NCBI RefSeq assembly: GCF_018143015.1
Contig: NC_054744.1
Span: 4,051,059-4,115,058, forward strand
Origin: Lytechinus variegatus
Lineage: Eukaryota; Echinodermata; Echinoidea; Temnopleuroida; Toxopneustidae
Direction: 5' to 3'
Length of the DNA stretch: 64,000 bases
The stretch's first letter is position 1; each line of letters opens with the position of its first letter. Position numbers and translations under genes: made by a program. Below are positions 1,952 to 44,500 of this stretch, one piece after another. The notes below the pieces were generated by a model, which saw only the letters and a program-made list of their open reading frames with translations, made no database searches and was not told where the DNA came from.

Positions 1952-2663
1952 CATTTACTTTCAATGGAATGTTATCACCAAACATAGAAATCTATCAAAG
2001 ACAGTGTTATCATTAATCAGTATAATGCTCATTCCTCAAATTACATTTACATAAATGAGGATGTAATGATGATCACCTGAATATGTGCATGATACTTTCA
2101 CCTTGACACAAACTCATTTTTTTTTATTTATGTTGATATTCTCATTTTACCCAATTTGTGTATCAAGTCTGCCAGACAATCATTCCCGGGGGGGGGGGGC
2201 ACTTACATTGAAGAGTGGATACCATGTGCGACCAAAGAAATATGTAAAAAGGATGTCTTTTTCAAGATACATGTAGGGCACGTTGCATACATAGCGTGAT
2301 GAGGGTGTCAAAAACACTGAAATAATGAAAAAGGGGTATCTATTTTGCTAGGAAAGCTACGTGTTTAGGGTCAAATTTGCAGGGATGATAAAGCAAAATT
2401 AAAATGTTTTATAAAGGATGTCCTTTTTGCCCCAACACTACGTGTTTAGAGTCCAATTTGCGCGAGGTGTGGAAGGTGCAGCCGTACTAAACCAAAATGG
2501 TGTGTAAAGGTGAAACCGACGTGACATAACAAAATATATCTTTACTTGTTTAGGGGTTCATTTCAGGGAATACTTGCCAGGAGTATCGTTTTGTTTCCAG
2601 TACCTCTTAAGGGTAGGGTTTCACATGCCAATTTCTTGTTAAGGGGTGCATTTTCAGAATTAA

Positions 2664-2996
2664 TGTATTAAGTAAGTATGATTGAGGCACTTACTGGATA
2701 AATGCCCCTGAGCTCCAAGGTGTATAATATCCCTCGGTAGTACGTGGTGTCCAGCGTAAATCCACTGGTACTCTATGTTGCGGCTGAACACGTACTTGAC
2801 TTGACCTTCTTTCTCCAGACACAGAACTCTCACTGGTTAACCTTGACACTCGTCGATCGTCGGGGGTAATTTTGGGGGTATTGCGGGCGCATCGTGCGTA
2901 ATGTTCATTCATGCACGGATGTGAGTGAAGGGCTATTAATCGTCTATATGGCCGGTTAGACCCAGGCGACATTGTTTAACGACCCTTTATGCAACA
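2664..2996 (-). repeat. LTR (3' LTR of the minus-strand element)
   Basis: 333 bp, TG...CA termini, matched by the copy at 9682-10014 with about 11 substitutions that fall mostly in two short clusters. A 93-codon open frame runs through both LTR copies on the element strand, but nothing shows that it is translated. Confidence 0.85.
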
Positions 2997-4500
2997 CACC
3001 CCCCGGCCCTATAGATTGGCAAATATTTTGAAATTGTGAATTCTAAATTGCCAATCTCTAAATATAAAATCGAATAAAAACAAACCAAATAAAAACAAAT
3101 GAACATAATCCCCAATTGTAAACAAAAACAAAGTTCAATGCTTTTATATACAATATTTACAAACAATGACTTCCTCCTCAGTTTCCCTGAGATGGATAAA
3201 AATTAGGTGGAAATACCTGTAAATTACTCATGATTTCCCCTGTTATGATCAATCGGACTAATTATCAATATCCAATTGTCCGTTTGTTTACTTATGGCAT
3301 TTCTTTAGCCTGTCATGATTAACAACGGACGTGGAATTCCTATATGAGTTGCAATAGAGGTAGGGAGGGAGTTTTGTAAGCCTGGTCGGTATAGGCCCTT
3401 CCAGGGAGGAGACAGTTTCTTTGTCTTCCCCTTTTTGAGTGGCCGTGTCGAGTAAGTAAACTCGATCCCTCTTTTGGAATTCACGACAATAAACTCTGAC
3501 ATCTATTCTCTTTTTAAGCGCTCCTGGGTTGTCCGGAGCTTAGTCCTTGCAGTTTCATGGGCTTGGATAAGAGTCTGTTTGAGCTGAAAAACAAACTCCT
3601 CCGTTGAGCCTGATTCTGCTGCGGACGGAAGATCAGATCCGATGGCTAGCTCGTCTTTCGGCCAAGCATGAACATGTTTGGGGTGGATGTGATAGGCCTT
3701 GCTATTTGAAAGACTTACTTTTCCAATTGACTTTCCAATGGAGCACCTTATAGCCTGCATGAGATTTTGGTCAAACCGCCCAGCTTGTCGGTTAGCAGAT
3801 GGCCGATAAGGTGTGATAAGGTTGCGCCTCATTCTTTGTTTGATTGGCGCTACGTTTCCCGTGTTAATGTAATGTTCTATTTCGGTAAATTTCCCGAGGT
3901 CAAATTTATCTCTGGCAAAGAATTCTAACAGTAATTCCTTGAGAGTTCGATGGACTGTTCCCAAAGACCCTGTAAGTGAGCAGGGATTGGAGTCGGCGAA
4001 GATAAACAGACACCCCGCACTTGCTTAATGTCCTAGGTTGGTGGATTTTGTGGATCCAAGTCTGGTTTAATGGCGGTAGCTCCTAAGGCTTCCCCAATTA
4101 CCATGCCTTATTTCCAACTTAGGTTTCGGCCAGTGGCATTAAATACAAAAAGTTCAATGGCTCCTGCTGTTTCATGAACTGTGATCCGATTTTGGTTCAG
4201 CTGGTGGGGGCCATGGAGGTAGCACCCATGGGCAGGTTATACTAGATGAAGGCTGTCCCTTCCTTTCTACCAGGGTAGACTGCAACTGAGTATGTCCTCG
4301 GAAGTCTGCACCAGTATTACTCCTCAACTCTTCAGTTACCTTTGCTGAGGAAGCAAGAGTAGGTGAAGTAGAGGTGGGGCACACTACCGACTTATATTCA
4401 ACAGTTGCGTCAGTCACTTTATGTAAGGCAGGGAATGGGGGCACTCCATCTTTCTGGACTAGTGTACGAACCTGCGAAGAATTCTGACTAGTGCCCTGGG
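2997..4500 (-). pseudogene. Remnants of retrotransposon pol and 3' internal region
   Basis: Minus-strand frames here contain pieces recognisable as Ty3/gypsy pol. One has the motif that usually opens the reverse transcriptase region (NTGNVAPIKQRMRR, about 3850-3880). Another resembles the end of the integrase (KKGKTKKLSPPWKGLYRPG, about 3360-3430). Most of pol is missing, so this is a fossil. The 4172-4444 frame adjoining gag is Ser/Pro-rich and not recognised. Confidence 0.6.
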
Positions 4501-6831
4501 CTATGTGGATCGGGGTCGGGCTAGTTCCTCCGATCCCAACTCGTTTCCCGGTTCGTCACCAACAAATGAAACAGTCTTTAACTGTTCTACTTCTGGACAG
4601 TCCCGTTTAAAATGGCCGGATTTGCCACATTTGAAGCAAGGATTGTCTGGGCCAGGTGACCTCAGTTTTCCTCTGGCCGGGGACGCCCTTCCTGGGGACG
4701 ATCTGGGTTTAGGAAGGTCTCTTCTCATTTGAAGGGTCGTGATGAGCCCTTGCACCATAGAGTGAAGTGTTCCCACCTTTGCTTCGACTGAGTCTAGCTG
4801 CCCTTTGACAGAGTTCTGAAACGAATCAAATTTCTGTTCTAGTTGGGAGACTCGAGTTTCGAGGCTAAGATCGGAACAGTGAGAAGTAAGTGAAGATGGG
4901 ACAGGTATTTCCATCTTCCGCACTTTCTTCTCAAAGGGGTCTACACAGGTAGATAACTGTCTGATGTCCTTCCGAGGTTTGCCTTGCATGGCCTGTCTGG
5001 CATGCTGGAACATTCGGGAAACTCGTAAGGCATCATCAAGATTTAGGGGTTGATGATTTAGTGTGTGCTGCCCCGCTTCGCGATCAGTCGATCCCTGACA
5101 GAAGCGCAGCACAAGCTGCTTCTGCACGTAACTATCGGGCAGATTGGGGAATGCCTGAGATGCTAAAGCCTGTAGTCGCTCGGCCCACTCTACACATGAT
5201 TCTTCGGAAGTTTGCCTTGCATAATTAAAATGCACCTGGGCGACTTCCGGGAGTTCCTGTGGAGCAAATCGTTTCTCCAACTTCAGAACTACATCATAGT
5301 AGCTTATGGCCGGTTCACGTCTAATCAGTGAGGCGTAGTACTCGCTGGCTTTCCCATCTAATGCCCAACACAGTTGGTTTTGCCTATGTTGTTCATCCCA
5401 ATTACTATCATTGGCAAATGATGTAAACTTGGCAAAAAATGCGTGCCAGCTCCCTGAACCATTAAAAACAATTGTTCTAGGTAAATATGTCCTGGGAGCG
5501 GGCTTGGGAGGCATTCTTGAATTTCCTGAGGAAATGGTGGGGGGAACTATCTCGGGCCGGTTTGAACTATGGCCCTGAAGTTTGGGTGAAGGCCTTGGCT
5601 CTGGCTGGTTGAACTTTGGAACTGTAACGGAAGAGACATTCTTCTGTCGGGTAGGTCCAGAACCCAGCTTAAATTGATTGGACCTAGGAGCCGGCTTAGG
5701 AGGCTGATTCAGTTCGGGATGAGGCAGTGGTGAGAGCCGGCGAACAGGTGGCGGCGACACCTTTACTGATGCTGAATATCCCCTCTGGTTTCCACCCTGA
5801 TTGGGATAAAAATCATCATCCCTTAGAGCATGAGTTGGGGTCCGATCATAAGTCTGACGAGTATGATAACAATCACGATCGTCAGGGAGATATCGATCAC
5901 GAATATGAGTACATCGATCATAATAGAGATCATCCCTTGGTCTTCGGGGAAACGACCCATTAAATTGATCCTCTTTCAGCTGCCTTGGGGGCACTTCCAT
6001 CTGAAACAGAGAAAGTAACTCTCTCAAAAGATGTGAAGCCTCCTGGATGGAGTGCTCCCTTGGAAGGCGAGACTGTTTTACAGTCTGGAAGGCAGATGGA
6101 CCAATTGGCTCGCCATATGAATGCAGTGGCTCGTCCATGGGACCACTTGGCTCGCCATACATATGCTGTAGCTCGTCCATGGAGCCAGCGCGATGGCGCT
6201 CGTTGGGATCGCCACTGATGTGCGGTTGTACCCCGCAATCGGGGATTGTTTCAAGATGATCTCTCGGCACGCCCTGGGTTTGCCTTCCCCCCTCTCCCAT
6301 TAAGGGCTGTTCAACCTTATTCCTCTGGGGTGTGGAGGCTCCTTGCTGAGCACCCTGTAATTGTTTAGCTACTGTGGCCCGCGGTGTCGCAATGGGCCTA
6401 GTAGCTTGAGGTCTACCGATGTCAAGTGGTAGGGATTGTCCCTGCTGACCATATGACACAGTAGAGTCAGAGAGTCTTATCGGGAGGGATGCAGCCCTAG
6501 GATGTCCTGGTGCCGGAAAACGATCATAAGGATACGGGGCAATAGGCGGTGGAGGAGTTCTCCTCCGTGCCTGAGGCACCGGTGAAATATGCGCGAGTGC
6601 ATCTGCACCAGCAGGTGTAAAATCAAAAGCATCTATCACTTCGTTTAAGTTACGAATATGCGGGACCGAAGCTAATAATTCGGGAGTGATGTTTTCGGTA
6701 GCTTCGCGTAACGCAAGAATGCGATCGGCAGTGGCGGAGCCAATGCCTGGTACTCGTAACAAGTCATCCCTATCACAAGAATTAATACGGATCTTATCCA
6801 TTGCGAAGAAAATTGAAATTAAAATCCGCAA
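4501..6831 (-). CDS. gag: Gag-like protein with N-terminal helix-hairpin-helix
   Basis: An open frame of 776 codons on the element strand. From the N-terminus it has: a helix-hairpin-helix-like segment (about residues 14-60, INSCDRDDLLRVPGIGSATA), similar to ComEA-type DNA-binding repeats; a long Pro/Arg-rich disordered region with a short internal repeat (MDELQHMYGEP / MDEPLHSYGEP); a retrotransposon capsid-like region (about 455-615, FNGSGSWHAFFAKFTSF and following); a probable coiled coil (about 660-700); and one CCHC zinc knuckle (CFKCGKSGHFKRDC, about 732-745). A second Met at residue 11 is an equally likely start. The capsid-like region and knuckle mark it as Gag of a Ty3/gypsy-like element. 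The helix-hairpin-helix head is unusual. The rest of the element is broken, so function today is doubtful. Confidence 0.8.
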   Translation of the reverse strand: MRILISIFFAMDKIRINSCDRDDLLRVPGIGSATADRILALREATENITPELLASVPHIRNLNEVIDAFDFTPAGADALAHISPVPQARRRTPPPPIAPYPYDRFPAPGHPRAASLPIRLSDSTVSYGQQGQSLPLDIGRPQATRPIATPRATVAKQLQGAQQGASTPQRNKVEQPLMGEGGRQTQGVPRDHLETIPDCGVQPHISGDPNERHRAGSMDELQHMYGEPSGPMDEPLHSYGEPIGPSAFQTVKQSRLPREHSIQEASHLLRELLSLFQMEVPPRQLKEDQFNGSFPRRPRDDLYYDRCTHIRDRYLPDDRDCYHTRQTYDRTPTHALRDDDFYPNQGGNQRGYSASVKVSPPPVRRLSPLPHPELNQPPKPAPRSNQFKLGSGPTRQKNVSSVTVPKFNQPEPRPSPKLQGHSSNRPEIVPPTISSGNSRMPPKPAPRTYLPRTIVFNGSGSWHAFFAKFTSFANDSNWDEQHRQNQLCWALDGKASEYYASLIRREPAISYYDVVLKLEKRFAPQELPEVAQVHFNYARQTSEESCVEWAERLQALASQAFPNLPDSYVQKQLVLRFCQGSTDREAGQHTLNHQPLNLDDALRVSRMFQHARQAMQGKPRKDIRQLSTCVDPFEKKVRKMEIPVPSSLTSHCSDLSLETRVSQLEQKFDSFQNSVKGQLDSVEAKVGTLHSMVQGLITTLQMRRDLPKPRSSPGRASPARGKLRSPGPDNPCFKCGKSGHFKRDCPEVEQLKTVSFVGDEPGNELGSEELARPRST

Positions 6832-8010
6832 ATAAGATTAATTCAAAGACAATTGATGAATATTCGCTAGAAAATAGTGGAGAAATACATCAATTACATT
6901 CAGCAATAATCATTTAAAATTTATCCACTTAATTCAGCAAACCAATCGCAAATTCAAATGATTTGCAATTTAACAGTTAATCAATTATTTGCAAATTGAA
7001 GCTGTATAAGCATTCATTCAACTATTGCAAATACAAATAGAAAATTACATCCAATTATATTATCAATTATTTACAAGTTATGAAGTTAACATCAAATAAT
7101 TGGTGACAATAGAGCGGATTCTCCAATTAACAATTATCTGCAATTATTTCCTAAAGTAGAGAATGACAAAATAACAATAATTAATTGCAAATTTCCTATC
7201 TATCATTCATCAACTTATTTATTGTAATCTTTCTGGTGCAGTGTGATAAATTGATCTTTACCACTGCCAATGTTTCCGATTTAGAAGTATCAGGAAACAA
7301 TATTGATTCCAAAAATAAGAGCAAATATCATGAAATGGAAACAATAATCGGGTCACAAAATTTAATTGCAAAAAGAGAACAATTAAATCTACATTAAATG
7401 CTAAATGAGACCGCCTGTGATAGCAGAGAACCTAAATAAGCATAAGGAATTTAAACTACAGGTTTTCCTTTTATATTTACTTATAGAGAACAGTAAGGGA
7501 AAGTTATATTTAAATTACTCGACCAATATTAAATTTTATTTAAAAGGATGCCAATATGAGAAAGGGAAAATTTATTTAACAGATTTATACTTTGCCTCCA
7601 ATTGTAAATTGGCAACAATTATCATTCGAGCCGCGTTTTTTACCGCTGGCGCGAAATTCGAGTCATGTGAGTCACGCCCGAATTCAATAGGCTATTCACA
7701 AAAGACAAAGGCAGCCACACGTAATGGCGGCATGCAGCTACGTTAGGGCGGAATGTTTTGCGTTTAAATAGCTAGTTTAAGCAATTTACGCCCTATACCT
7801 AGCCAGTGACAGTAATAACTATTTAATATGCCCTAACTAATTATTACAGACCTACTAACGTATATAAGCCCTATCTAACTAAGTTCCTAAGTCCTAACAC
7901 AAATTTTAATTCTATCCGGTATCCCGTGCAGAAAACGTGTTCCTTAAACGGGTTCAAAATGGTGAGCAGTGTTTAACATTTGATCACCAAAATGCTGGAG
8001 CTGCTCGGAC
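6832..8010 (-). other. Untranslated leader of the LTR element
   Basis: About 1.2 kb of very AT-rich sequence between gag and the primer-binding-like TGGCGCT (8011-8017 on the other strand). It is full of CAATTATTTGCAAATT-like words. Plus-strand open frames here (7185-7397, 7405-7746) have no recognisable features. Confidence 0.5.
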
Positions 8011-8061
8011 AGCGCCATTAATGTATTAATTAAGTATGATTGAGGCACTTACTGGATAAAT
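8011..8061. repeat. 51-bp direct repeat, left copy (LTR end plus primer-binding region)
   Basis: Identical to 9671-9721 except at one position. It consists of TGGCGCT (on the minus strand) plus the last 44 bases or so of the LTR. The two copies exactly bracket the SETD4-like sequence. The junction just after this copy forms a short palindrome, GGATAAATAATTTATCC. Confidence 0.85.
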
Positions 8062-8073
8062 AATTTATCCAAT

Positions 8074-9255
8074 ACTGGACGAGGACTAATGGCAAGAAAG
8101 AATTTTAGGCCCGGTGATCTGATAGTTGAGATTCCACGGCGTCTGCTTGTGACCCCGAAAGATGTCTTGAACACGGAATTAGGACCACTTATAAAGAGAC
8201 AACTGCAGAAACCAACCCCCTACCAAGCGGTCTGTGCATTCCTGATCACCGAAAGGACAAATGGCAAATCTTCTTTCTGGTACCCTTACATCAATGTCCT
8301 CCCAAAGAACTTCACCACACCAGCCTTCTGCTTCGCCACTCAAGCCCAATTTGATCTGCTGCCCTCTCAGGCACGGATAAGTGCCACCAAACAGCTACAG
8401 GATATCCGATGTGCTTTTGAGAGTGCTTCATGCTTGTTTGAAGACATCGAAAGGACCTTTCCCCGGTACAGGGGCGTCTTCGACTTTGGGTCCTTCCTGT
8501 GGGCGTGGTTCGTGATCAACTCTAGGTCGGTCTATATGGAGCCCAGCGGCTGCGAGACATTTGATCCAAAATCAAAAGACGACTTTGCTCTAGCTCCTTT
8601 CCTCGACCTTCTCAACCATTCTCCAGGTGCCGAGGTCAGTGCAGGCTTTGATTCAGCGTCTAATACGTATCAGATCAAGACACTAGACAGCTACCGTACC
8701 TATGACCAAGTCTTCATTCACTATGGCCCCCATGACAACGTGAACCTACTCTTAGAGTACGGCTTCGTGATCCCCTCCAACCCGCATGATGTAGTTTGCT
8801 TTGAGCTAGGTGAGGTTGTGGATGCAGTAAAATCTCAGCACAAGGGCCCTCTTAGCTGCAGAAAAACTCGAGAGGTTGCTGATTTGTGGGAGGTCAAATC
8901 TCGCACTTTGAAGGCTGCCAATGTAGATCTTGACCTGTCCTGCAGCATGTCGGGTCCCTCCTGGAATCTTCAGACAGCACTGAGAGTTCTTTGTATGGAG
9001 TACAACGAAATAGTGAACTGGAAGAGAGTTATTGCAGAGAACAATATCCCACCATCAACCAAGAACTTAATCAGAGGAGCCTTAGATAAGTTAACCACTG
9101 ATGAACAAGAGAGGGTGCTGTCTATGCTTCAGATACTTGATCGTGCAGACTTGGGAGAGAAGATGGGTGATTATATCCAGAATGTTAGAATACTGTGGAG
9201 CGAAAGACTGAACATCCTTCGGGCCACTCGGGCAGAGTTGGATCCCAACGGTTGA
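8074..9255 (+). CDS. SETD4: SETD4-like lysine methyltransferase, intronless and 5'-truncated
   Basis: An uninterrupted frame gives 393 residues from TGRGLM (8074) and 388 from the first ATG (8089), ending at TGA 9253-9255. Homology to SETD4 runs to the C-terminus. Diagnostic stretches are WAWFVINSRSVYMEP, DLLNHSPG (Asn176-His177 of the cofactor site, counted from the ATG), VFIHYGPHDN (catalytic-type Tyr212), EYGFVIPSNPH, GPSWNLQTALRVLC and LWSERLNILRA. SETD4 is a SET-domain lysine methyltransferase with a Rubisco-methyltransferase-type C-terminal domain. Human SETD4 is 440 residues, so roughly the first 60 are missing, up to the GTGRGLM motif. No splice acceptor precedes the homology. The lack of introns, the truncation and the 51-bp flanking repeats suggest a retrocopy trapped in the LTR element. 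The ATG is internal, so a product, if made, would lack the first SET motif. The intact frame is notable. Confidence 0.85.
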   Translation, partial: TGRGLMARKNFRPGDLIVEIPRRLLVTPKDVLNTELGPLIKRQLQKPTPYQAVCAFLITERTNGKSSFWYPYINVLPKNFTTPAFCFATQAQFDLLPSQARISATKQLQDIRCAFESASCLFEDIERTFPRYRGVFDFGSFLWAWFVINSRSVYMEPSGCETFDPKSKDDFALAPFLDLLNHSPGAEVSAGFDSASNTYQIKTLDSYRTYDQVFIHYGPHDNVNLLLEYGFVIPSNPHDVVCFELGEVVDAVKSQHKGPLSCRKTREVADLWEVKSRTLKAANVDLDLSCSMSGPSWNLQTALRVLCMEYNEIVNWKRVIAENNIPPSTKNLIRGALDKLTTDEQERVLSMLQILDRADLGEKMGDYIQNVRILWSERLNILRATRAELDPNG

Positions 9256-9545
9256 TGGAGAATGAGAAGATGACAGAAGTATTCCAGGACAAGAGAGTCC
9301 ATTAGACATGAATCTTCAAGACCGATCGGGCAGAGTTTTGAGAAGGAGAAGACAGGTGTATTCTGGTATGAGGCAGTCCATCGGAGACCTATATTTTCAG
9401 GACTTCTCATGCTGAGTTAGATCCCAACTGTTGATTGGGAATGAGGAGAAGACAGTTATATTCTAGGACAAGTCGGTCCATGAGACACGAATCTGCAGGT
9501 CCGATCGGGCAGAGTTTGGAGAATGACAAGACATGTCTTGGGTCC
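9231..9545 (+). repeat. Tandem repeats over the SETD4-like stop codon and 3' UTR
   Basis: Related units begin near 9231, 9329, 9411 and 9509. Units 1 and 3 share GATCCCAAC.GTTGAT and units 1 and 2 share GGCAGAGTT, giving a higher-order period of about 180 bp made of alternating units of about 98 and 82 bp. The first unit contains the last codons (RAELDPNG) and the stop. Confidence 0.65.
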
Positions 9546-9630
9546 TGGGTGGTATAGGAATGATTAGACAAGACTCAGTTGTAGTCGGATCATTTATTTG
9601 CCGGCCAGATCAAAATGCCATTACAATGGC

Positions 9631-9636
9631 AATAAA
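9631..9636 (+). promoter_or_regulatory. Poly(A) signal AATAAA of the SETD4-like sequence
   Basis: Canonical AATAAA about 375 bases past the stop and 35 bases before the 51-bp repeat. The position fits the end of a copied mRNA, although no poly(A) tract is present. Confidence 0.5.
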
Positions 9637-9681
9637 AACTGAAACGGAACAGAGACAAAACCCTGCTCGCAGCGCCATTAA

Positions 9682-10014
9682 TGTATTAAGTAAGTATGAT
9701 TGAGGCACTTACTGGATAAATGCCCCTGAGCTCCAAGGTGTATAATATCCCTCGGTAGTACGTGGTGTCCAGCGTAAATCTAGAGGTCCTGTATGTTGCG
9801 GCTGAACACGTACTTGACTTGACCTTCTTTCTCCAGACACAGAACTCTCACTGGTTAACCTTGACACTGACTGATCATCGGGGGTAATTTTGGGGGTATT
9901 GCGGGCGCATCGTGCGTAATGTTCATTCATGCACGGAAGTGAGTGAAGGGCTATTAATCGTCTATATGGCCGGTTAGACCCAGGCGACATTGTTTAACGA
10001 CCCTTTATGCAACA
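9682..10014 (-). repeat. LTR (5' LTR of the minus-strand element)
   Basis: 333-bp partner of 2664-2996. The 51-bp sequence 9671-9721, which overlaps its inner end, is repeated at 8011-8061 on the far side of the SETD4-like sequence. Confidence 0.85.
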
Positions 10015-10114
10015 GAATATAGAAAATAGGTGTTTAGGGTGCTTTTCGAGACCCCATGGTCGCGCATGATATCCACTCGTCAATGGAAGTGCCCCCCCCC
10101 CCCGGGCAATCATG

Positions 10115-14831: not shown

Positions 14832-17800
14832 TCATACAAATGTACTAACACTCCATGGGGAGTATGGAGGCGGCTGTTCATTGGCTGCTGGAGAGAGTTG
14901 TCCATTGCTAGAGATTATGGAAGCTCTGTGGTGAGGAGATGATGGGGTGTGGTCACCATTGTGATCGTCAGTTGATGAAACGGAGTTGTGGGCCAAAGAA
15001 TCATCATACGGTGGTGGAAAGGCGCCACAGACAGGAGATTGATCTGGTTGGATGGTCACCCCAGTTTGTTCGGGACTCCCAGTCAAAATTGATATGCTTC
15101 CTTGTGTGTTCCTTTGGTCAGTGTCTTCCTCTGCAATAGGTGGTTGTTGGTCGCTGGATGGACTGTATGGCGGGGGCGATATCATCAGGCCTGAAGACAC
15201 ATTACTTCTAGCATCAGTGGTGGAAGGACTGTATGGCGGAGGTGAAGTTAGACCCGAAGGGAAGAGAAAAATTTGCCGATTGTCAGAGTTCACATTCACA
15301 GAAATGTTTGTAACATTGATTGGTGGACCATCGACGTATGAAGGACGGTGGTGATCAAGGTGAACCGTCAGTGGGTATTCCGGAGGAGGGTGGTGTGGGG
15401 TTAGTTCCCTCTCTTCCTGGTGGGTTTGGGATGCGTCCCTTGACTCGCCTTGGAAGGCGAATGGGTTTCTTATGTTTTCAGCCATATGCCTCATCCCAGA
15501 AGGACATGCTAATTTCTTGCCACGTTTGAAGTGTATGACGACAGCAACCATCAAGATTAGTAGGACGATGCTGGCAAAGGACAGGCATCCAACCAGCACT
15601 GATGATGTTGATGATGACGATGTTGACTGACTTTTGCCTATGAAGTAAAGAGGGGATGCAGGTATTATAAACTGAATGAAAAAACAAGAACTACAATTAT
15701 GTCATTAACTTATCACTAATAAAACTTTCCTTTCGAGTACACATCAGTGTTTTAACGGGCATTCTTGGTCCCGTTGTTGAAAGACTTTCAATGAAATGTA
15801 AATCCGAATGATTTTGAACCAACAGGAGCACACATATAGGAATCTATACGACTGGTCTCATGTCCCCATATCTTACAATATCTTCAGTAGAAAGTTTTTA
15901 AAAATCTGTATCTTTTCTCGTAAGAATTCATGCTTATTTTGAGGAAACCCGAACTCCGTTATCGGTCGTTTTGGTTCATAAAATATAAAAGATCGCTCAT
16001 GAAGAGTTTGAGATTTGATACCCTACACTACAGTAAAGGATGGAGACTCGGACTCACCGCATATGACACCAGCATCATCGGAATGGAAGCAGGAACTAGG
16101 ATACCATTCACTCGAACATGATAACAGACTGGACTCGCCTCCTGAGCAAGCGACGTTGCCCAGGACAACCCTCTGTCTCCCTCGTCCAAAATAGGCGTTA
16201 GACACAGCTGTCACGTGATCGCTTGGGAAGCCGACCTGACGACAGACAACCGAAGCATCATCTTCGTCCCATCTTGAATCGCAGATTGTACCCCATTGCC
16301 GGTCGTGGAAAATTTCTACACGACCTTCACTGCGCGATGAACCTCCCACCAGCCGTACGTCTCCATCCTTTGGAACTGAAATATTTAAAGGTTAATCAAA
16401 TTTTTTGGGGGGGTTCTGACGTAAATTTGACCCCCAAAAAGGGTTTCACTACACAATTCTGAAAGTCATTTGGTCATGAGATTATTTCATTTTTTTTACA
16501 TTTTCACTTCAGTGGGAGTTCTGTTCTCATGCACTCTCAAAAGATGAAATATTTAAAAGTTAATCAAATTTTGTGGGGGGGTCTGACGTAAATTTGACCC
16601 CCAAAAAGGGTTTCACTACACAATTCTGAAAGTCATTTGGTCATGAGATTATTTCATTTTTTTTACATTTTCACTTCAGTGGGAGTTCTGTTCTCATGCA
16701 CTCTCAAAAGATGAAATATTTAAAAGTTAATCAAATTTTTTTGGGGTCTGACGTAAATTTGACCCCCAAAAAGGGTTTCACTACACAATTCTGAAAGTCA
16801 TTTGGTCATGAGATTATTTAATTTTGTTTACATTTTCACTTCAGTGGGAGTTCTGTTCTCATGCACTCTCAAAAGATGTTAATTCCACTCCAAAAACGAG
16901 TGGTCCCCCGTCTCACTGAGAGGAGAGAGATTAGGAACCCCGAATTGGCTCGGTGCATGTAGGATTTGATTTTCATACATATTTCATTGAAGTTGCGTTT
17001 TGCATTTAGCAATTAGATATGGATGAAATGTCATTGATCTTACCACAGTCAACTCCAGCATCTTCAGAGTGTCTACAATTGCTCGGCCTTGACGAGCTCG
17101 GACAATGTACCAATTTCTCTTCTTGGCCGAAACACTGTACATTATCAAGTGATATATACCCAGTTCCCATGCCATAGACGGCTGAATACTGGGCGATAGC
17201 TCCATCCGGGTCATAACCGAGCTGTCGACAAACAACCATGGCATCTACGTTGTCCCAGTAATCATCACAGACCGTTGTCCATCGTTCGCCATCGTAGACC
17301 TCCACTCGACCTCGTGATGATTGGCCACCATTGATCAGCCTGACGTCGCCTTCTCGCTCTGGGTTATAAAATACACATGCAATATATTATATTATCGCAT
17401 TTGACAATTCACTCAAACAAAGCGATATAATTCTGCCTATTGTGTTTCATCAAATAGCTAGACTGTCGTTCTTTCGTTGCTTGAACCCCCCCCCCCCCCG
17501 ATATCAAACATGGAAGGAATGGTTCATAAAATTGTGATGAAGAGGCGGAGGGGGCCCTGCTGCTGGTACTGCTGCTGATAATGATGGCGATATGAGGATG
17601 TTGATGAAAATGATGACATGATGATGATGATGGTGATATGATGATGATGAGGAGGATGATGATGTTGATGGCGATATGATGATGATGATGGCTATATGAT
17701 GATGATGATGATGAATGATTATGATGATGATGATGGCGATATGATGATTATGCTGATGACGATATGATTATGATGGCGATATGATGGTTATGATGAGGAT

Positions 17801-35500: not shown

Positions 35501-38500
35501 TGTGGTGGACAGCTATAATGAATACCATCATGATTCCAATATCTATGCCAAAAACTTGAAGCCTTTAAACTTGAATCAGGAATAAATCCATTCTCAACGC
35601 CCAAGGGGTAATCGAAGTCACCTGGCATGTCTGGTGGAAATAAGAACGAACCTACTTTAGCATGCGGTTATGAAATTAATTTTATCAGTGTAGAAAACTA
35701 ATAAGAAAATAATTAATGACTAAGACTTAGTAGTAACCGCTATACTCTCAAACTTCCCAGATGAACTATATAGATAATCAGATCCTTTACATTTCAGTCT
35801 CCTGGTGAAATTCCCAATGTCTTGACTACAAGGGGAGTGGATGTATTGGTGTAAAATGACCCTAAGAAATATTAGGCTATAAACGGGGATATTTCATTTT
35901 GCAGATTAAAGTTGAGATTGCTGATATGATTTTACGGCCATTCAGAAGTGATTAAGGTCGGGACGCCAGGCTGAGAATGATATGATTTGAATAGGTAAAG
36001 AACAAGGCGGTTCACGAGTCTCGCCTGACTACGTGATCAATAAGATATGCACTACATAATAATTAAAATATAACTCTCCTAGATGAAAATTTTGAATCAA
36101 ATTATTGGTACTATTTGATTACAAAAAACCCCAAAGATCAAAGGAGTACTCCAAGATGACAAATCTAGATTGAACTGATAAATTAAGAACAGACAAGACA
36201 CTCTAAATTCGCCAAGAATTATACAAGAAAATAAGAAGACGTGACATTTTAATAAACTATACACAACAAAAAAGTAAGTCCCCCTTAAACAAACATCAAT
36301 AATTTCCGAACCAACGCGAGTTTTTAATATATATTTTTACAATGAGCGTGTTTATAAGCTACCCTCTGAATAAATGTCATGGACGTATTTTATGGCATGC
36401 TTCAGCGAGCACCCCTAGATGTCAAATTGTCACTTTTCAAAAGTCACAAGCCAAATATCATGATTTTGATTCCACTTTATTGGAACGAATTCCACATTCT
36501 CATCATGAAAAATAGTCAGAAGACTTGTTGTCAGATCTTGGGACTGAAATTCCCAGTCTGGTAATAGATTTGGTTCTGTTTGAAATGAACGTAGTTACCA
36601 CTTGCACTAATCACACAATCATTCAATATCTATAAGTAACATAAATTTAATTCAGAGCGACCAGCTCTATAAATGTACATATAGTTAAAGAAATTGAATA
36701 ATCAGAATTAGATCATGAATCACATGCATATCAACATAACATCAAACTGTATTCAGCAGTTAACATCAGCATGAATTAACCTATACTGAATATGTTGCAA
36801 TATGTATCTAATGAGAGTGATTTATTTATATTTAATCAAGGCCTAATAATTTGGCATCCAAACGTGACAATATTTTTGGTTATTAATTCCACCAATTAAG
36901 TTTCATCAAAAGAGGGTTTATACTTGGATGAATACATACACTGGACCGTAGTATATCTAATCTGGTTATAATTTATATTGTTCAGAATAAGGACCCCTTC
37001 GACATCGTCAATGACTATCGTTGGTCCGATGAATATAGTCGTCTAAGAGCGAGCTGCGGTGGCTTCGACGACGCGAAGTAAAGCGAGCGAACTCTCGACG
37101 AAAAGCCAGTCCAGATTCGCGGACGAAATGATGAGGGCTGAGAGCCACAGTACGAAGATTGCTACGATGAATCACAAGTCACGAACTCTGAGTTCAAGGA
37201 TGAAGTACGAGCCCAGCTCGTCCAGTTCTTTGGAACAGTCGTGCCTGGTGAGATGAGGGCAGATGTGGTGGCTTTACCTGGCCTGTGCTGCCTGGATCCA
37301 GCCTGCCAACGATGGGGATTAAGACTCCGCTGTGCCTGCACTACACAGCCTGCAACATACACCCAAAGTAATGGCCTACGAGAACCACACCCTCACACTC
37401 CGAGTTAAGACCAAATGTGGAAGGGTCTTCCTCTCCCGAGAATCAAACGATTTCTGATTTGCTTTTACTCAAACACCACTCCATCTTGACTCTCACAAAG
37501 ACAAAGTCATTAACATTCTCAATATTCCTCTGCTTTACTCTTCCACGCTGAACATATCCAATTAAAACTACTTAACTATCCAAGCTTTAATTTCACCTAT
37601 TCAAAACTCCCATCTCAAACATTCTCAACAATCTTTTCCTCTCATACATAAAAACAAACATCTATAGAATTTTAGAGACCCATTGAACTTAACAAAATAT
37701 ATCAAGTTAAATGACCCAATGCTCATGACCTAAGCTTGTCAAGAAGTCAAAGTAAAATTCTAATCCTTACACCCCAGCGGGTTTGATCACTTACTTAAAG
37801 ATACAGTTGATTGACTCTGGGACTTTGACAAGAGTCAACCACCCAAATTCCTTTTATTATATACAAGCTGAATGGTTACTAGGGGTTAACACTAAATAGA
37901 CTTACAGTCGCATTGTGACATATCTCCCCTTCCTTCAAGAAATTTCTATAATTTTTGGAGTGAGTTTCTCCGAACCTGGAAGGAAAATCAAACAATTAAT
38001 ATATATATATACAAATATAAATGTATTTACAAGAAAACCAAAAACACTCATCCTGGTTTCTGCTTCATGTAGAATCATTATCCGGTATCCTACTTAGGTA
38101 GTCTGCACCGACATTCTCTACACTTTTGATCGCTGTGATGGTGAACCGGAACGGCTGTAGTAGCAGAGCCCATCTCAGGATCCTTGCGTTTGCCACCTTC
38201 GACTTGGCAATACATTTCAGAGGTTGGTGATCCGTTTCTAGGTGGAAGTGCTTGCCATAGAGATACGGTTCAAACTTCAGAACTCCCCATACAACCGCTA
38301 AGCACTCACGTTCCATGACTGAGTAGCCTTGCTCTCTTGGAAGTAGCTTCTTGCTGGCATAGGCGATCGGAAACTTCTTACCTTCTGTTTCCTGAAGCAA
38401 GATTGCCCCGAGGCCATTATCTGAAGCATCGGTCCTCAAGATGAAAGGGTGATCTAGGTCTGGAAGATGGAGGATGGGTTCTCTAGCGAGCTTCGTCTTC

Positions 38501-41500
38501 AAGGTATTGAAGGCTGCCTCTTCTGCATCTCCCCATTTCACGAGAAGTGGTTCCCCCTTCTTCGTTCGATCAGTCAAGGGTACTGCTATGGCTGCAAAAT
38601 TCGGAATGAATCGCCTGTAATAACCTACAAGACCTAGAAAGGATCGAAGTTGCTTTTTGGTCTTCGGTCTTTGAGCTTCTTGCACTGCTTTGACTTTGTC
38701 TTGCACTGGCCGAAGCTCTCGTTGACCCACTCGATGACCAAGAAATTCGATACTTACACATCCGATTGTACACTTCGTTGGTCTGGCCGTCAAGTTGGCC
38801 TTCTTCAGTCTCTCGAATACCTCCCGGAGGGTATCCAAATGTTCCTCAAAACTTACCGTGTGAATCAAAATATCATCAATGAAGTTGTCTACATACTTCA
38901 ATCCACGGAGTAGATCTCTCATAATCCGACTAAAACTTGCTGGAGCATTAACTAGCCCAAAAGGCATGCTTCGAAATTGGTACAAACCTTCTGGTGTCAC
39001 AAATGCCGTCAACTCCTTGGCTTCTTCTGTTAGGGGTACCTGCCAATAACCTTTGGTTAAATCAATTTTAGTGAAATACTTGGCCCTAGACAATTTAGCA
39101 AATATTTCTTCCTGATCGGGAATTGGTTCTGCATCAGTTATGGTGACTTGGTTTAATTTGCGATAATCACAACAAAACCTAATAGACCCATCTTTCTTTT
39201 TTACCATAACAACAGGGGATGCGTAAGGGGAATTGGACGGTTCCACTATCCCTAAATCCATCATCTTTTGAACCTCTTCGTTCACCTTACCTCGCAGAGC
39301 ATGTGGCAATGGATACGGCTTACTCTTAATGGGCTCCTTAGTGACAAGTTTAATGTCGTGTTTACCTAGGTTTGTCGATCCCGGCATATCTGTCAAGACT
39401 TCTTCATACTCATGTAAAAGAGAGTTGACTTTCTCTTGCTGGTCATCATCCAGTTGTGGACTGATTTGCACATCGTTGAGTGATTCTGTAGGGTTAAGAT
39501 TAGGGAGATGAAGAATGTCTTTTCTTACCGAAGGGTCCACATCTTCACTCTCTCCTTCACAATCCTGGGATACGTCCTCGTCCACTACAGAGACACAAAC
39601 AACATCAAACACTCCCGCACTTACCTCTTCTCTCCTGTAATATTTCTTCAGAAGGTTTGCGTGAAATGTCTTCGTCTTCCCGTCCAAATCGATTTTGTAG
39701 TCGAGAGGTCCTACCTTCTGCACCACCTTGAAAGGTCCTTTCCAGTGCATCAAGAACTTGTTGTTGTCGCTTGGAAGTAGAAGAAGAACTTCGTCGTCGA
39801 CTTCAAATTTTCGCTCCTTGGCTTTCTTGTTGTACTGTCTTCTGTATGTCTCTGCTGATTTGCTGAGATTCTGCTGGGCAAGTTGACACGTCGACTCCAG
39901 CCTCTCCTTCAGATCCAGTACGTATTGGTAAGTAGTCTTGGTATCTGGCTCGTCAACCTCACCCGTCCAGAGCTCTTGAAGAATAGCAAGAGGGCCTCGA
40001 ACTGCTCTCCCATACAGGAGTTCAAAGGGTGAGAAGCCTGTGCTCTCCTGCACTGAATCTCTGTAAGCAAACAAGAGGGGGTTAAGATACCTTTCCCAAT
40101 CCTTGGGTCTTTCTTCACACATTTTGCGGAGCATGGACTTCAAGGTACCATTGAAGCGTTCAACTAGCCCATTGCAAGCAGGATGATAGGGTGTAGTAGT
40201 CATCTGCCGGATGGAGAGTAGACGACTCACTTCCTTCATCAGCTCTGATGTGAATTGGCTGCCACGGTCTGTCAACACCTCTCGTGGTATCCCTACCCTG
40301 GAGTAGATGTCCATCAGTGCCTCCGCAACCGTCTGTGCGTCAATACGGCGAAGCGCTACTGCTTCTGGGTAACGAGTAGCATAATCTACAACAGTTAGTA
40401 TGAATCGGTTACCTTTACCACTAGCCGGCTCTATCGGTCCAACCAAGTCCATCGCCACACGTCTGAAAGGTTCATCGATGAGAGGGGTTGATCCCAGAGG
40501 TACCTTCGTGACCTTTCCCTTCGGCGAAGTACGTTGACATGGCCCACATGACCGACAATACCGGACTACATCTGCATGCATACCTGGCCAGAAGAAATGC
40601 ATCAAGATCTTTTCACAGGTCTTATTCCCTAGATGACCACCTAGAATCGACTCATGAGCCAGTTTTAAGACTTGATTTCTGAACTTGGTGGGCACGACAA
40701 CTTGTAACAGAACATCTGACCCTGGGGTTGCATCCATGTATTCCCTATAGAGTACATCCTTCTTAAAGAAAAAGCAAGATGAATTTCCACCCTTACTTAT
40801 CTTCTTTTCTCCTTTCTCAGCGGCTTTCCTAGAGGCATCCAACGAGCTGTCTTCCTTCTGGGCCTGGATGAGATTATCCACTGACACCATGTCTTCTAGT
40901 GGCTTGGTTACAGGAAGAGGGGGCCTTGTCCGTCCCGCCTGCCGCTTCTGCCCTCTTGTCTCCACTGCACTGCCTTGATGATCTCCTGGCGTCCAGTCTC
41001 CGTCTGGATCAGCTGGTTGCCTCGCTCCAGGAATATTACCTAATACAAGATCATAAACAGGGGTTGGTACACATAGAGCTTCTACCTTACCCTTGAAGTA
41101 TGGAGTATCTATGTCGATTTTGGCACGTCGGAAGTTTCTCAGCGTCCGGTCGACGAGCAAACACGTCAGCCTATCTCCAAAGAACTGCTCTTCACGCACC
41201 AACTCATATCGGACGATGACTGTTGTGCAACCACTGTCGCGAAGAACATCCACGGGCTTCCCATTCACCAATCCATCGACGACTGGCATCTCCACTTCTG
41301 ATCCACTCGCCACTGCCGATAGTACCGGTAGAGTGTCACCAGATGCCAACTTCACTCCGCTTCCATCTTCTGTGAGATTCTCCTGCACGATTAGACTCAA
41401 ACTCTTGCTGCAGCATCATCTCCAGCTGATGTGTCTTCTGCTGACCTGCCTGCGACAACACTGGCTCCCATCTCTCGACGACCTTTCTTGTTTGGACAAT

Positions 41501-44500
41501 TAAAAGAGATATGTCCAAATTTATTACAATTGAAACACTTCTTGTCATCAAATTTGGACTTACCCGGTTTTTCAACCTTAGTGTGACTAATTGCATTGTT
41601 ATTACTCTTATTCACATTAGGATTTACATTTTTAGAACTGGACTGATGGGCTTTATTCATTCTCCTTATTCTCATATCTGCATGGGCTTCATTGAATTGA
41701 TCAGCTAGGGAGGGGAGGGGCGGAATACTAGGCTTATGTGAATGCCCTGCACGTGAAACATTTTCTGTCCCATTATTTTTCCTTAACTCTTCAAGTTTAA
41801 TCCGTTTATCTAATAACTCTGATTCTTTTTTCCTAGCTTCATCCCGTTGAGCTATTATATAAGATTCTGCCTTCCTAGCTTCAATCTCGGCATTCCTAGC
41901 TTCAATCTCAGCATTCCTAGCTGCAACCTCAGCACTCCTTGCTGCTGCTCTTTCATCTCTAGCTTCTCGCACACATCCATCAACATATGCTCTCAATTTA
42001 TCACCCTCTAAACCAAACTTCTCTCCTTGTGCAATGAACTTGTCTCTCTCCATACTGTAGGCCACTCCACAGGTTTAGTTACAAACTTACCATATGCAGA
42101 CAGTTTACGCAGCGCAATGTAGTCCTGATGCACACAGCACTGGCACGTACAGGCGTACACGCAGTAAAGCCTCCTTGCCCTGACCTCCACATGCACCACT
42201 GTCTTCTACAACCTTGGACCTACAACAAACTTTGTAAAAACAACCAAATGGAAAAGAGATCAAAATATCATTATCAGATCTACATACAAGTATAATTACA
42301 ATCAATAACAATCATTTCATTATTAACCTAACCTATCAAATGGACAAGAGGGTCCCTTCGTGGTCGCCAAAATGTCAGATCTTGGGACTGAAATTCCCAG
42401 TCTGGTAATAGATTTGGTTCTGTTTGAAATGAACGTAGTTACCACTTGCAATAATCACACAATCATTCAATATCTATAAGTAACATAAATTTAATTCAGA
42501 GCGACCAGCTCTATAAATGTACCTATAGTTAAAGAAATTGAATAATCAGAATTAGATCATGAATCACATGCATATCAACATAACATCAAACTGTATTCAG
42601 CAGTTAACATCAGCATGAATTAACCTATACTGAATATGTTGCAATATGTATCTAATGAGAGTGATTTATTTATACTTAATCAAGGCCTAATAATTTGGCA
42701 TCCAAACGTGACAATATTTTTGGTTATTAATTCCACCAATTAAGTTTCATCAAAAGAGGGTTTATACTTGGATGAATACATACACTGGACCGTAGTATAT
42801 CTAATCTGGTTATAATTTATATTGTTCAGAATAACACTAAATAGACTTACAGTCGCATTGTGACACTTGTAAAAGGTACTTTCTAAAAGACGATACAACT
42901 TTTTAAAACTAAATTTCACGGTTGAATAATTACAAGTCCAAATTCGCTATAATTGGATTTTTTTTTTACACATTTATATTGATAAAAATGATCGAATCTG
43001 ATGACAGTTATTTTTGGGAAGAGTATCTTCAACGATATATATCGTTTCACGGTTCAATGAACATTTATTGAAAACAAAAAATGCGATTTTTCAAAATCAT
43101 ATTCAAGTGTTGTTTCATTTTGGTAACTGAAAATTATCTTTTCTCAACTTTTTTGTTACATTCATGACCGATTAACATGGTTCAATGATTCAAAGGCGTT
43201 CAATTAAACATTCACGCTTGAATGAACATGTAGAATGTGATTAGCTCTTGTTTACGTTATTCGAAAAAATGCAGTTGCTAACTATGGATATCTGTCACAA
43301 ACTTCCTTGCATAGTTCATTTGATTTGATTTTTATGAAAATCCCGATGTCTAATGCATCAGTGAGCACACAATTTAAACAAAACTATGCAAATGAGAAGA
43401 AAGTTCAAGGCCTTGGCCCCACTCTGTACCGTATCGATTGGTTACGTTGGTGTGCGCGCCTTTTGGAAAGTGTTACTCTCAAGCCATGTGCGAAGTTTCA
43501 TGAAATAACTGTTGGCAAAAGTAACAAAAACGGTCCATTAAACAAACCCTCATTTCACTTTTGCTAAAATTTTGACTTCTTCTCTCATAGACATTGTGGA
43601 CACTATGGGTGTGTGTGTTTATAAGAATAATTAACCCCTGATTCAATATGGTGCAACTTTTATTCATGGCTGTCTTTAGCGATGCCACTTGGCAGTAAAA
43701 TTTCTCAACCTATGGGCAGAATTCTGTGCAAAAATGAAATAGATTTATTTATGCAGGGGCCGCGGAACGGTTTTCAAAGTGGACTGAGCCAAAAGTGTGT
43801 GTGGGGGGGGGTGTTGCACCCACAAATGTAATAACGCCCACAAATGTAATAACGCCCACAAATGTAATAACGCCCACAAATGTAATAACACTTTACCCAC
43901 AAATGTAATAACGCCCACAAATGTAATAACACTTTACCCACAAATGTAATAATTTCACCCACAAATGTAATAATGCACTTTACCCACAAATGTAATAATT
44001 TTTGATCGCCCACAAATGTAATAATGACTTTACCCACAAATGTAATAAATTTGAAGGGATTTTTGGCAAATCCGTTCTGAACTAAAATCGTATAGTAATG
44101 CGTTCATATAGCACAAAAGTGCAAAGTCTCTTTTCCTGACCCGGTTAATTAACAAATTATACTATAAATCCAAAGTCTTTATTCCAGACCCGGTTGTTTC
44201 AAAAATAATAATATGAGCCCAAAGTCTTTATTCCAGACCCGGTTGTTTAAAAAATTATAATATAAGTACAAAGTCTTTATTCCAGACCCGGTTGTTTAAG
44301 AAATAATCATATGAGCCTAAAGTCTTTATTCCAGACCCGATTGTTTCAAAAATGATAATATAAGTCCAAAGTCGTTTCTCCAGACCCGGTTGTTTAAAAA
44401 ATTATAATATAAATCCAAAGTCTTTTTCCAGACCCTGTTGTTTCAAAAATTATAATATAAATCCAAAGTCTTTATTCCAGACCCGGTTGTTTAAAAAATA

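Follow-up and report, generated by a model that had tools for sequence, protein, structure and literature searches.

LTR retrotransposons are known to duplicate genes, and in old copies it is hard to see at what stage of reverse transcription the template is switched. Intronless copies of mRNAs also arise as LINE-1 processed pseudogenes. The primary paper on LTR-mediated retroposition is reportedly that of Tan et al. (2016, Genome Res 26:1663), and it may name the strong-stop step that is of concern here. Two reviews, in the passages that deal with this process, describe template switching at microsimilarities in general, and do not name a strong-stop step there (PMC5408686, PMC8277862). According to the relevant passage of one of them, the element Bs1 of maize made retrocopies of three genes (PMC5408686). 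A further source, in the part that treats reverse transcription, states that the plus-strand strong-stop DNA of HIV-1 halts at m1A58, with minor stops at 55 and 54, and gives m1A58 for primer tRNAs, that of serine included (PMC13191261). Strong-stop priming as a route for the capture of host genes was not named in the titles and abstract openings of openly licensed PMC papers among the matches listed, and passages of a review of Ty3 have no bearing on this question (PMC5371799).

This study focused on a 64,000-nucleotide stretch of the genome of the sea urchin Lytechinus variegatus (the window, C5:4051059-4115058), in which a Ty3/gypsy-type LTR retrotransposon with LTRs of 336 nt carries an antisense copy of a SETD4-like gene. 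The name SETD4 is our assumption, taken from an earlier note on this DNA. Like LTR-mediated retroposition as those review passages describe it, the locus presents a spliced mRNA that was joined to an LTR element through a microsimilarity and integrated between LTRs; the copy of a multi-exon parent is free of introns, and the target duplication lies outside the two LTRs. It departs from that description in that both captures reported below join the element at the 3' end of the plus-strand strong-stop DNA, with an 18-nt tRNA copy, an insert lying antisense behind the 5' LTR, and a second U5 end with primer-binding site. As with Bs1, an LTR element was involved in making retrocopies of host genes, but here two separate elements took up one mRNA each, rather than one element three genes; this likeness is drawn from the review passage on Bs1. 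A LINE-1 processed pseudogene is likewise an intronless mRNA copy, but the copy described here has neither a poly(A) tract nor a directly flanking target-site duplication of its own, and is bordered by pieces of LTR and primer-binding site.

Results

The element lies on the minus strand of the window, at positions 2661-10014, with its 3' LTR at 2661-2996 and its 5' LTR at 9679-10014 (both 336 nt, minus strand). It is enclosed by a target-site duplication, GAAT (ATTC in element sense), at 2657-2660 on the 3' side and at 10015-10018 on the 5' side; the duplication reads ATTC, and may be as long as ATTCTG if another LTR start is assumed. The matching empty site was found in a related interspersed repeat at L022, which lacks the insertion. 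The combination of LTRs, a tRNA primer-binding site and a short target duplication is that of Ty3/gypsy elements. A polypurine stretch, GGGGGGTG (2997-3004, minus strand), precedes the 3' LTR, as it also does in L016, L017, L020 and L049. A gag frame with a CCHC zinc knuckle occupies 4501-6831 (minus strand), its match to Retrotrans_gag falling below the cut-off. No pol family was found in the single short frame scanned (3503-3964), and there is no longer frame in that region. In a longer relative, L018, gag is accompanied by a frame in which protease, reverse transcriptase, RNase H and integrase follow the Ty3/gypsy order. Elsewhere in the window, a second LTR-type element (38065-42065, minus strand) has a CCHC gag frame and an open frame of 1,111 aa with stretches that resemble integrase and reverse transcriptase, as judged by eye, and a 167-nt unit is repeated three times in tandem at 16399-16897, the units being 85-98% alike.

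When pieces of the window were searched against the genome (870 Mb), the query 8011-9721 gave 61 candidates, of which 40 were scored. A parental gene in the same genome, which the earlier note had advised looking for, was recovered as separate exons at two multi-exon loci on C4, at about 48.21 and 47.15 Mb. Alignment to the parental exons delimits the copy to 8072-9666 (plus strand, antisense to the element), a spliced cDNA of 1,595 nt in which seven parental exons are joined, with AG/GT at every internal exon edge and no indels over the whole length. It has 20 mismatches to the 48.2-Mb locus, the nearer of the two, and 24 to the 47.15-Mb locus. Exon 5 (8811-9012, 202 nt) differs from both parental loci at 17 of 202 sites, against 3 mismatches in the remaining 1,393 nt and none in the 534 nt of the last exon and 3' UTR, both relative to the nearer locus. 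Over the 195 nt of exon 5 compared, the parental loci are identical to each other. An alternative exon 5 elsewhere in the genome was ruled out as the source, the only matches in the assembly being the copy and the two parental loci; an unsampled allele would be a guess.

The copy contains an open, intronless frame of 388 codons (8089-9255, plus strand) and has kept an AATAAA (9631-9636), as previously described, and it was also correctly placed antisense within an LTR element. The frame begins at the Met of TGRGLM and is truncated at the N-terminus: codons for TGRGL are present ahead of the first ATG, 15 more codons upstream of 8089 are open but without ATG (403 aa in all), and the parental upstream exon, which specifies the N-terminal part, is absent. 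Its SET domain scored 24.1 bits with Pfam SET, just above the cut-off of 22.4, and is of the SETD3/4/6 class; the best relatives among solved structures were SETD3, with SETD6 lower in the list, and a scan against NCBIfam returned no family.

Two occurrences each were seen of SETD4 (C4, 47.15 and 48.21 Mb), fibrillarin (C8, 8.08 and 15.74 Mb) and bindin (C13, 18.60 and 24.95 Mb), which are either haplotypes that were not collapsed or segmental duplications. The Bindin family, which is typical of sea urchins, gave four matches, all at the two places on C13, and none in 14 control genomes. L028, which lies upstream of SETD4 at 47.15 Mb, contains a long open frame that looks, on inspection by eye, like an endonuclease/reverse transcriptase of LINE type; among the frames displayed for the corresponding region at 48.2 Mb there was none like it.

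At the 3' end of the copy, the SETD4 3' UTR passes directly, with no poly(A) at the joint, into a primer-binding site of tRNA type, TGGCGCTGCGAGCAGGGT (9660-9677, minus strand). By our own count of the tRNA numbering, its 18 nt correspond to positions 76-59 of tRNA-Ser(UGA), the 3' end of which, with CCA added, is ACCCTGCTCGCAGCGCCA (18 nt, positions 59-76, adjoining A58); three genes for this tRNA were found in the genome. Where the parent reads GAGACAAAACCCTGC followed by AAAGACAG, the window reads GAGACAAAACCCTGC followed by TCGCAGCGCCA and then the 5' LTR. Seven nucleotides of the site, ACCCTGC (9660-9666), are common to it and to the SETD4 3' UTR, so that the switch point may lie anywhere within tRNA positions 59-65. 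Among 2,070 positions of the copied mRNA and its 3' extension, ACCCTGC is the longest match to the strong-stop end, the next longest being one of 5 nt and three of 4 nt. A microsimilarity of the kind seen in LTR-mediated retroposition is present at the 3' joint; at the 5' joint it is harder to discern, with 10 nt of inverted LTR-like sequence in between. Priming near the end of the mRNA, but inside it, is possible, since an AATAAA precedes the 3' joint by 24 nt and about 110 nt farther along the parent there is also an ATTAAA.

On the 5' side of the copy, in element sense, the antisense cDNA runs to 8072, a limit that coincides exactly with a parental exon start, and is followed by a 10-nt joint, AATTTATCCA (8062-8071), that is not parental but an inverted copy of adjacent U5 sequence. 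Then come 43 nt of the U5 end of an LTR (8019-8061, minus strand), a primer-binding site of genomic type, TGGCGCTGTCCGAGCAGCTC (7998-8017, minus strand), and the normal leader. The upstream SETD4 exon, recognised by eye in translation, was rejected as the source of AATTTATCCA, as it ends in CTTCTTTCCAG; derivation from the parent by a one-base deletion and a 4-nt match is possible. A variant, TTACTTAATAC, is found in both full LTRs and is absent from the U5 fragment and from the other LTR ends displayed, and this pattern suggests that the fragment may have been supplied by a second genomic RNA.

The two primer-binding sites form part of direct repeats at 8010-8061 and 9670-9721, which are 98% alike, with one base different; a third copy (87%) lies at 2652-2703, in the 3' LTR. 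The earlier note had placed the SETD4-like sequence exactly between two 51-bp repeats one base apart. The repeats are as described, but the fit is not exact, as the parental match starts at 8072. A 51-bp target duplication was rejected, since one repeat holds the tRNA-type site and the other the genomic-type site; a site copied from tRNA in one and a genomic-type site in the other fit a second strand transfer gone astray. The palindromic junction, GGATAAATAATTTATCC (8054-8070), which had been taken as a trace of the event, is indeed present, and probably records the second template jump.

LTRs made in one event should be alike. Those of the window element differ at 11 of 338 sites when compared without gaps (8 mismatches and 2 gap columns with gaps), which counts against a one-step origin, whereas the LTR pairs of L016 and L017 show 0/336 differences each. 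Ten of the 11 differences (2661-2996 compared with 9679-10014) sit in two short patches; of the patches in the 3' LTR, one equals the sequence in L023 and L058, and the other is absent from the 19 other LTRs aligned. The differences could have come from later conversion, from mixed templates or from a two-step origin. Dating by LTR divergence was dropped because of this clustering.

A tRNA-type site adjoining such an LTR end occurs at four places in the genome at one mismatch or less, among them L015 on C4, where a second capture was recovered. At that place, an antisense, spliced fibrillarin cDNA (Pfam Fibrillarin, 358 bits; the PDB match was also fibrillarin) comes after the LTR and 18-nt site, and its parents are two multi-exon loci on C8. 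The joint reads GCGAGCAGGGT and then AAGCTTC where the fibrillarin parent has GCAGCAGGGGTAAGCTTC, so that four bases match the strong-stop end without a bulge, and more if one G is bulged. The cDNA snaps back on itself, with exact inverted arms of 363 bp and a loop of 105 nt, a fold-back much larger than the palindrome of the window. At AGTAAGTGCC it rejoins the element, with U5 end, genomic-type site and leader in that order. Between its two LTRs, L015 has 1/336 differences, and its flanks agree at 3 of the 4 bases where a target duplication is expected. Similarity to the parents is 84-85% for the piece of 3' UTR beside the joint, 90-92% where the fold-back turns and 94-100% for the other exon pieces, with one 82% match that overlaps a better one. 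Of the other places with a tRNA-type site, L016 is an element without an insert, its site being nearly of the tRNA form, and L022 (C18:5586163; 6100-6230) has one LTR, to which no partner was matched within the 8 kb examined; its tRNA copy continues into the T loop and gives way to a U5 end.

Relaxing the genome-wide search for the tRNA-Ser type of site to two mismatches gave 34 places. Eleven were examined, comprising the four tRNA-type-site places, two tRNA genes, and five in L071-L073; more captures may be present among the remaining 23. Eleven of the 34 places carry AGTGGCGCTGCGAGCAGGGT, the exact 3' end of tRNA-Ser(UGA) after AG, and probably belong to another element family with the same primer. 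L073 (400-440; C5:5494100-5494900), a distant relative (85%), has an LTR, a copy of tRNA-Ser type and a short stretch like an LTR end. From their sequences, L022 looks like strong-stop DNA that jumped straight to U5, and L073 faintly so. L071 (C6:14528800-14529800) and L072 (C4:23309700-23310500) have distant LTRs followed by three and four successive matches, respectively, to the LTR end with primer-binding site.

A search with the leader and U5 end found at least 40 places (40 of 51 candidates scored), 24 of which continue into the leader. The earlier note had also proposed a comparison with other copies of the element, with or without the insert: 22 of the 24 leader junctions are of the ordinary order (LTR, primer-binding site, leader), and two are the SETD4 and fibrillarin captures. 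Among the 22 uninterrupted members, the primer-binding site is of the genomic type in 19 and has other forms in L016, L069 and L070; the LTR of L054-L057 differs in its middle part, L070 is a distant relative (79%), and for L018, L061, L064 and L066 the match covers just part of the LTR. Neither capturing element was seen to have multiplied with its insert, since SETD4 adjoins an LTR at one place (among the best 40 of 61 candidates) and fibrillarin also at one (14 of 14 candidates scored).

Discussion

The explanation that we consider likely is that strong-stop DNA, having halted on its tRNA, used a packaged host mRNA as its next template and then returned to the element in U5. A Ty3/gypsy-type particle would have packaged, besides genomic RNA, a spliced SETD4-like mRNA of the host. 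The plus-strand strong-stop DNA would consist of U3-R-U5 and the copied 3' end of tRNA-Ser(UGA), halting after 18 tRNA nucleotides, presumably at a methylated A58; by analogy with the primer tRNAs described, sea urchin tRNA-Ser(UGA) would carry m1A58 and cause a stop there. Rather than pairing with the minus-strand primer-binding site, its 3' end (GCAGGGT-3') would have paired with ACCCUGC in the SETD4 3' UTR and been extended along the mRNA, and priming and extension of this kind would give a cDNA that is antisense to the element and has no poly(A) tract. Some 1.6 kb further on, synthesis would have switched from the mRNA back to the element, the new template being a minus strand whose own copying had passed the genomic-type primer-binding site and entered U5, probably on a second genomic RNA; the short inverted joint would have been left by this switch. 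Normal completion and integration would then have produced one unit with a 4-bp target duplication. We infer the packaging, the A58 stop in this tRNA, the second RNA and the order of these steps, while the spliced copy, its parent, the two types of primer-binding site, the 7-nt overlap, the empty site and the fibrillarin capture with the same joint are all seen directly. Some observations do not sit easily with this explanation: exon 5 differs far more from the nearer locus than do the other exons (17/202 against 3/1,393), the copy ends exactly at an exon start, which would be rare for random truncation, and at the fibrillarin joint only four unbulged bases match, beside a 3' UTR that is about 85% like its parents.

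Of the two origins offered in the earlier note for the captured host mRNA, template switching at the primer-binding site has gained strong support from the loss of introns, the absence of poly(A), the 7-nt overlap, the 18-nt site derived from tRNA, and the separate fibrillarin capture with the same joint. The other, an insertion with an unusually long duplication, is contradicted by the different primer-binding sites in the repeats. Insertion of a LINE-type processed pseudogene into the element, with 51 bp of target duplicated, would give an intronless copy between two near-identical direct repeats, but we attach practically no credence to it: besides the two kinds of primer-binding site, which refute it, poly(A) is missing, the 3' end of the copy falls on the 7-nt match to the strong-stop end, and the layout recurs in L015. 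An artefact of assembly that joined SETD4 to the element is highly improbable. The doubling of SETD4, fibrillarin and bindin does indicate that haplotypes may be incompletely collapsed, but a mis-join would not yield spliced exons, an exact tRNA 3' end and a matching empty site, nor a second case, fibrillarin, with the same joint.

It is also conceivable that the event took place in two steps, an ordinary element having inserted first and a strong-stop/SETD4 cDNA having entered it later, by homologous recombination in the LTR and end joining in U5. Such a history would agree with LTRs that are 11/338 apart beside a last SETD4 exon and 3' UTR identical to the parent over 534 nt, with a U5 fragment that lacks the variant common to both LTRs, and with the short inverted joint, which is like those left by end joining. 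We nevertheless regard it as unlikely: strong-stop priming would still be needed, 10 of the 11 LTR differences are clustered, and L015 has the same layout with LTRs only 1/336 apart and a 363-bp snap-back, for which one step is simpler. A question separate from that of origin is whether the copy is a functional retrogene, its frame kept by selection. Its 388 open codons speak for this, as do the 15 changed codons of exon 5, 7 of them being synonymous, but its chances appear slim, as the copy lacks the upstream SETD4 exon, its first ATG comes only after the TGRGL codons, the frame is antisense in the element, and SETD4 is joined to the element at one place only (best 40 of 61 candidates). The three changes outside exon 5 are too few for dN/dS, so that the suggestion of a maintained frame is not borne out; that of a young event suits the exons other than exon 5, but has no simple fit with LTRs that are 11/338 apart.

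Priming by strong-stop DNA on a host mRNA, as we propose it, is best read as a variant of the known LTR-mediated retroposition, the entry by way of strong-stop DNA being what sets it apart from the review accounts. In two separate elements, the joint tells at which step (the second strand transfer), on which template (tRNA-Ser(UGA)) and through which homology the switch occurred, and it provides a signature that can be searched for, namely an LTR, an 18-nt tRNA copy, an antisense cDNA with joined exons, and a U5 end with primer-binding site. Two captures with the same joint, compared here at the level of sequence, point to a repeatable route of gene duplication. Whether host mRNAs repeatedly gain entry where strong-stop DNA halts on the primer tRNA, with a 3' UTR match of 7-8 nt to the copy of the T stem being sufficient to divert the strand, is to our minds evenly balanced, and it amounts to a testable rule for which mRNAs are open to capture. 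If it holds, antisense retrocopies that lack poly(A) and lie behind an 18-nt tRNA signature would form a recognisable class, and the genes that an LTR element is able to duplicate would be predictable from its choice of tRNA.
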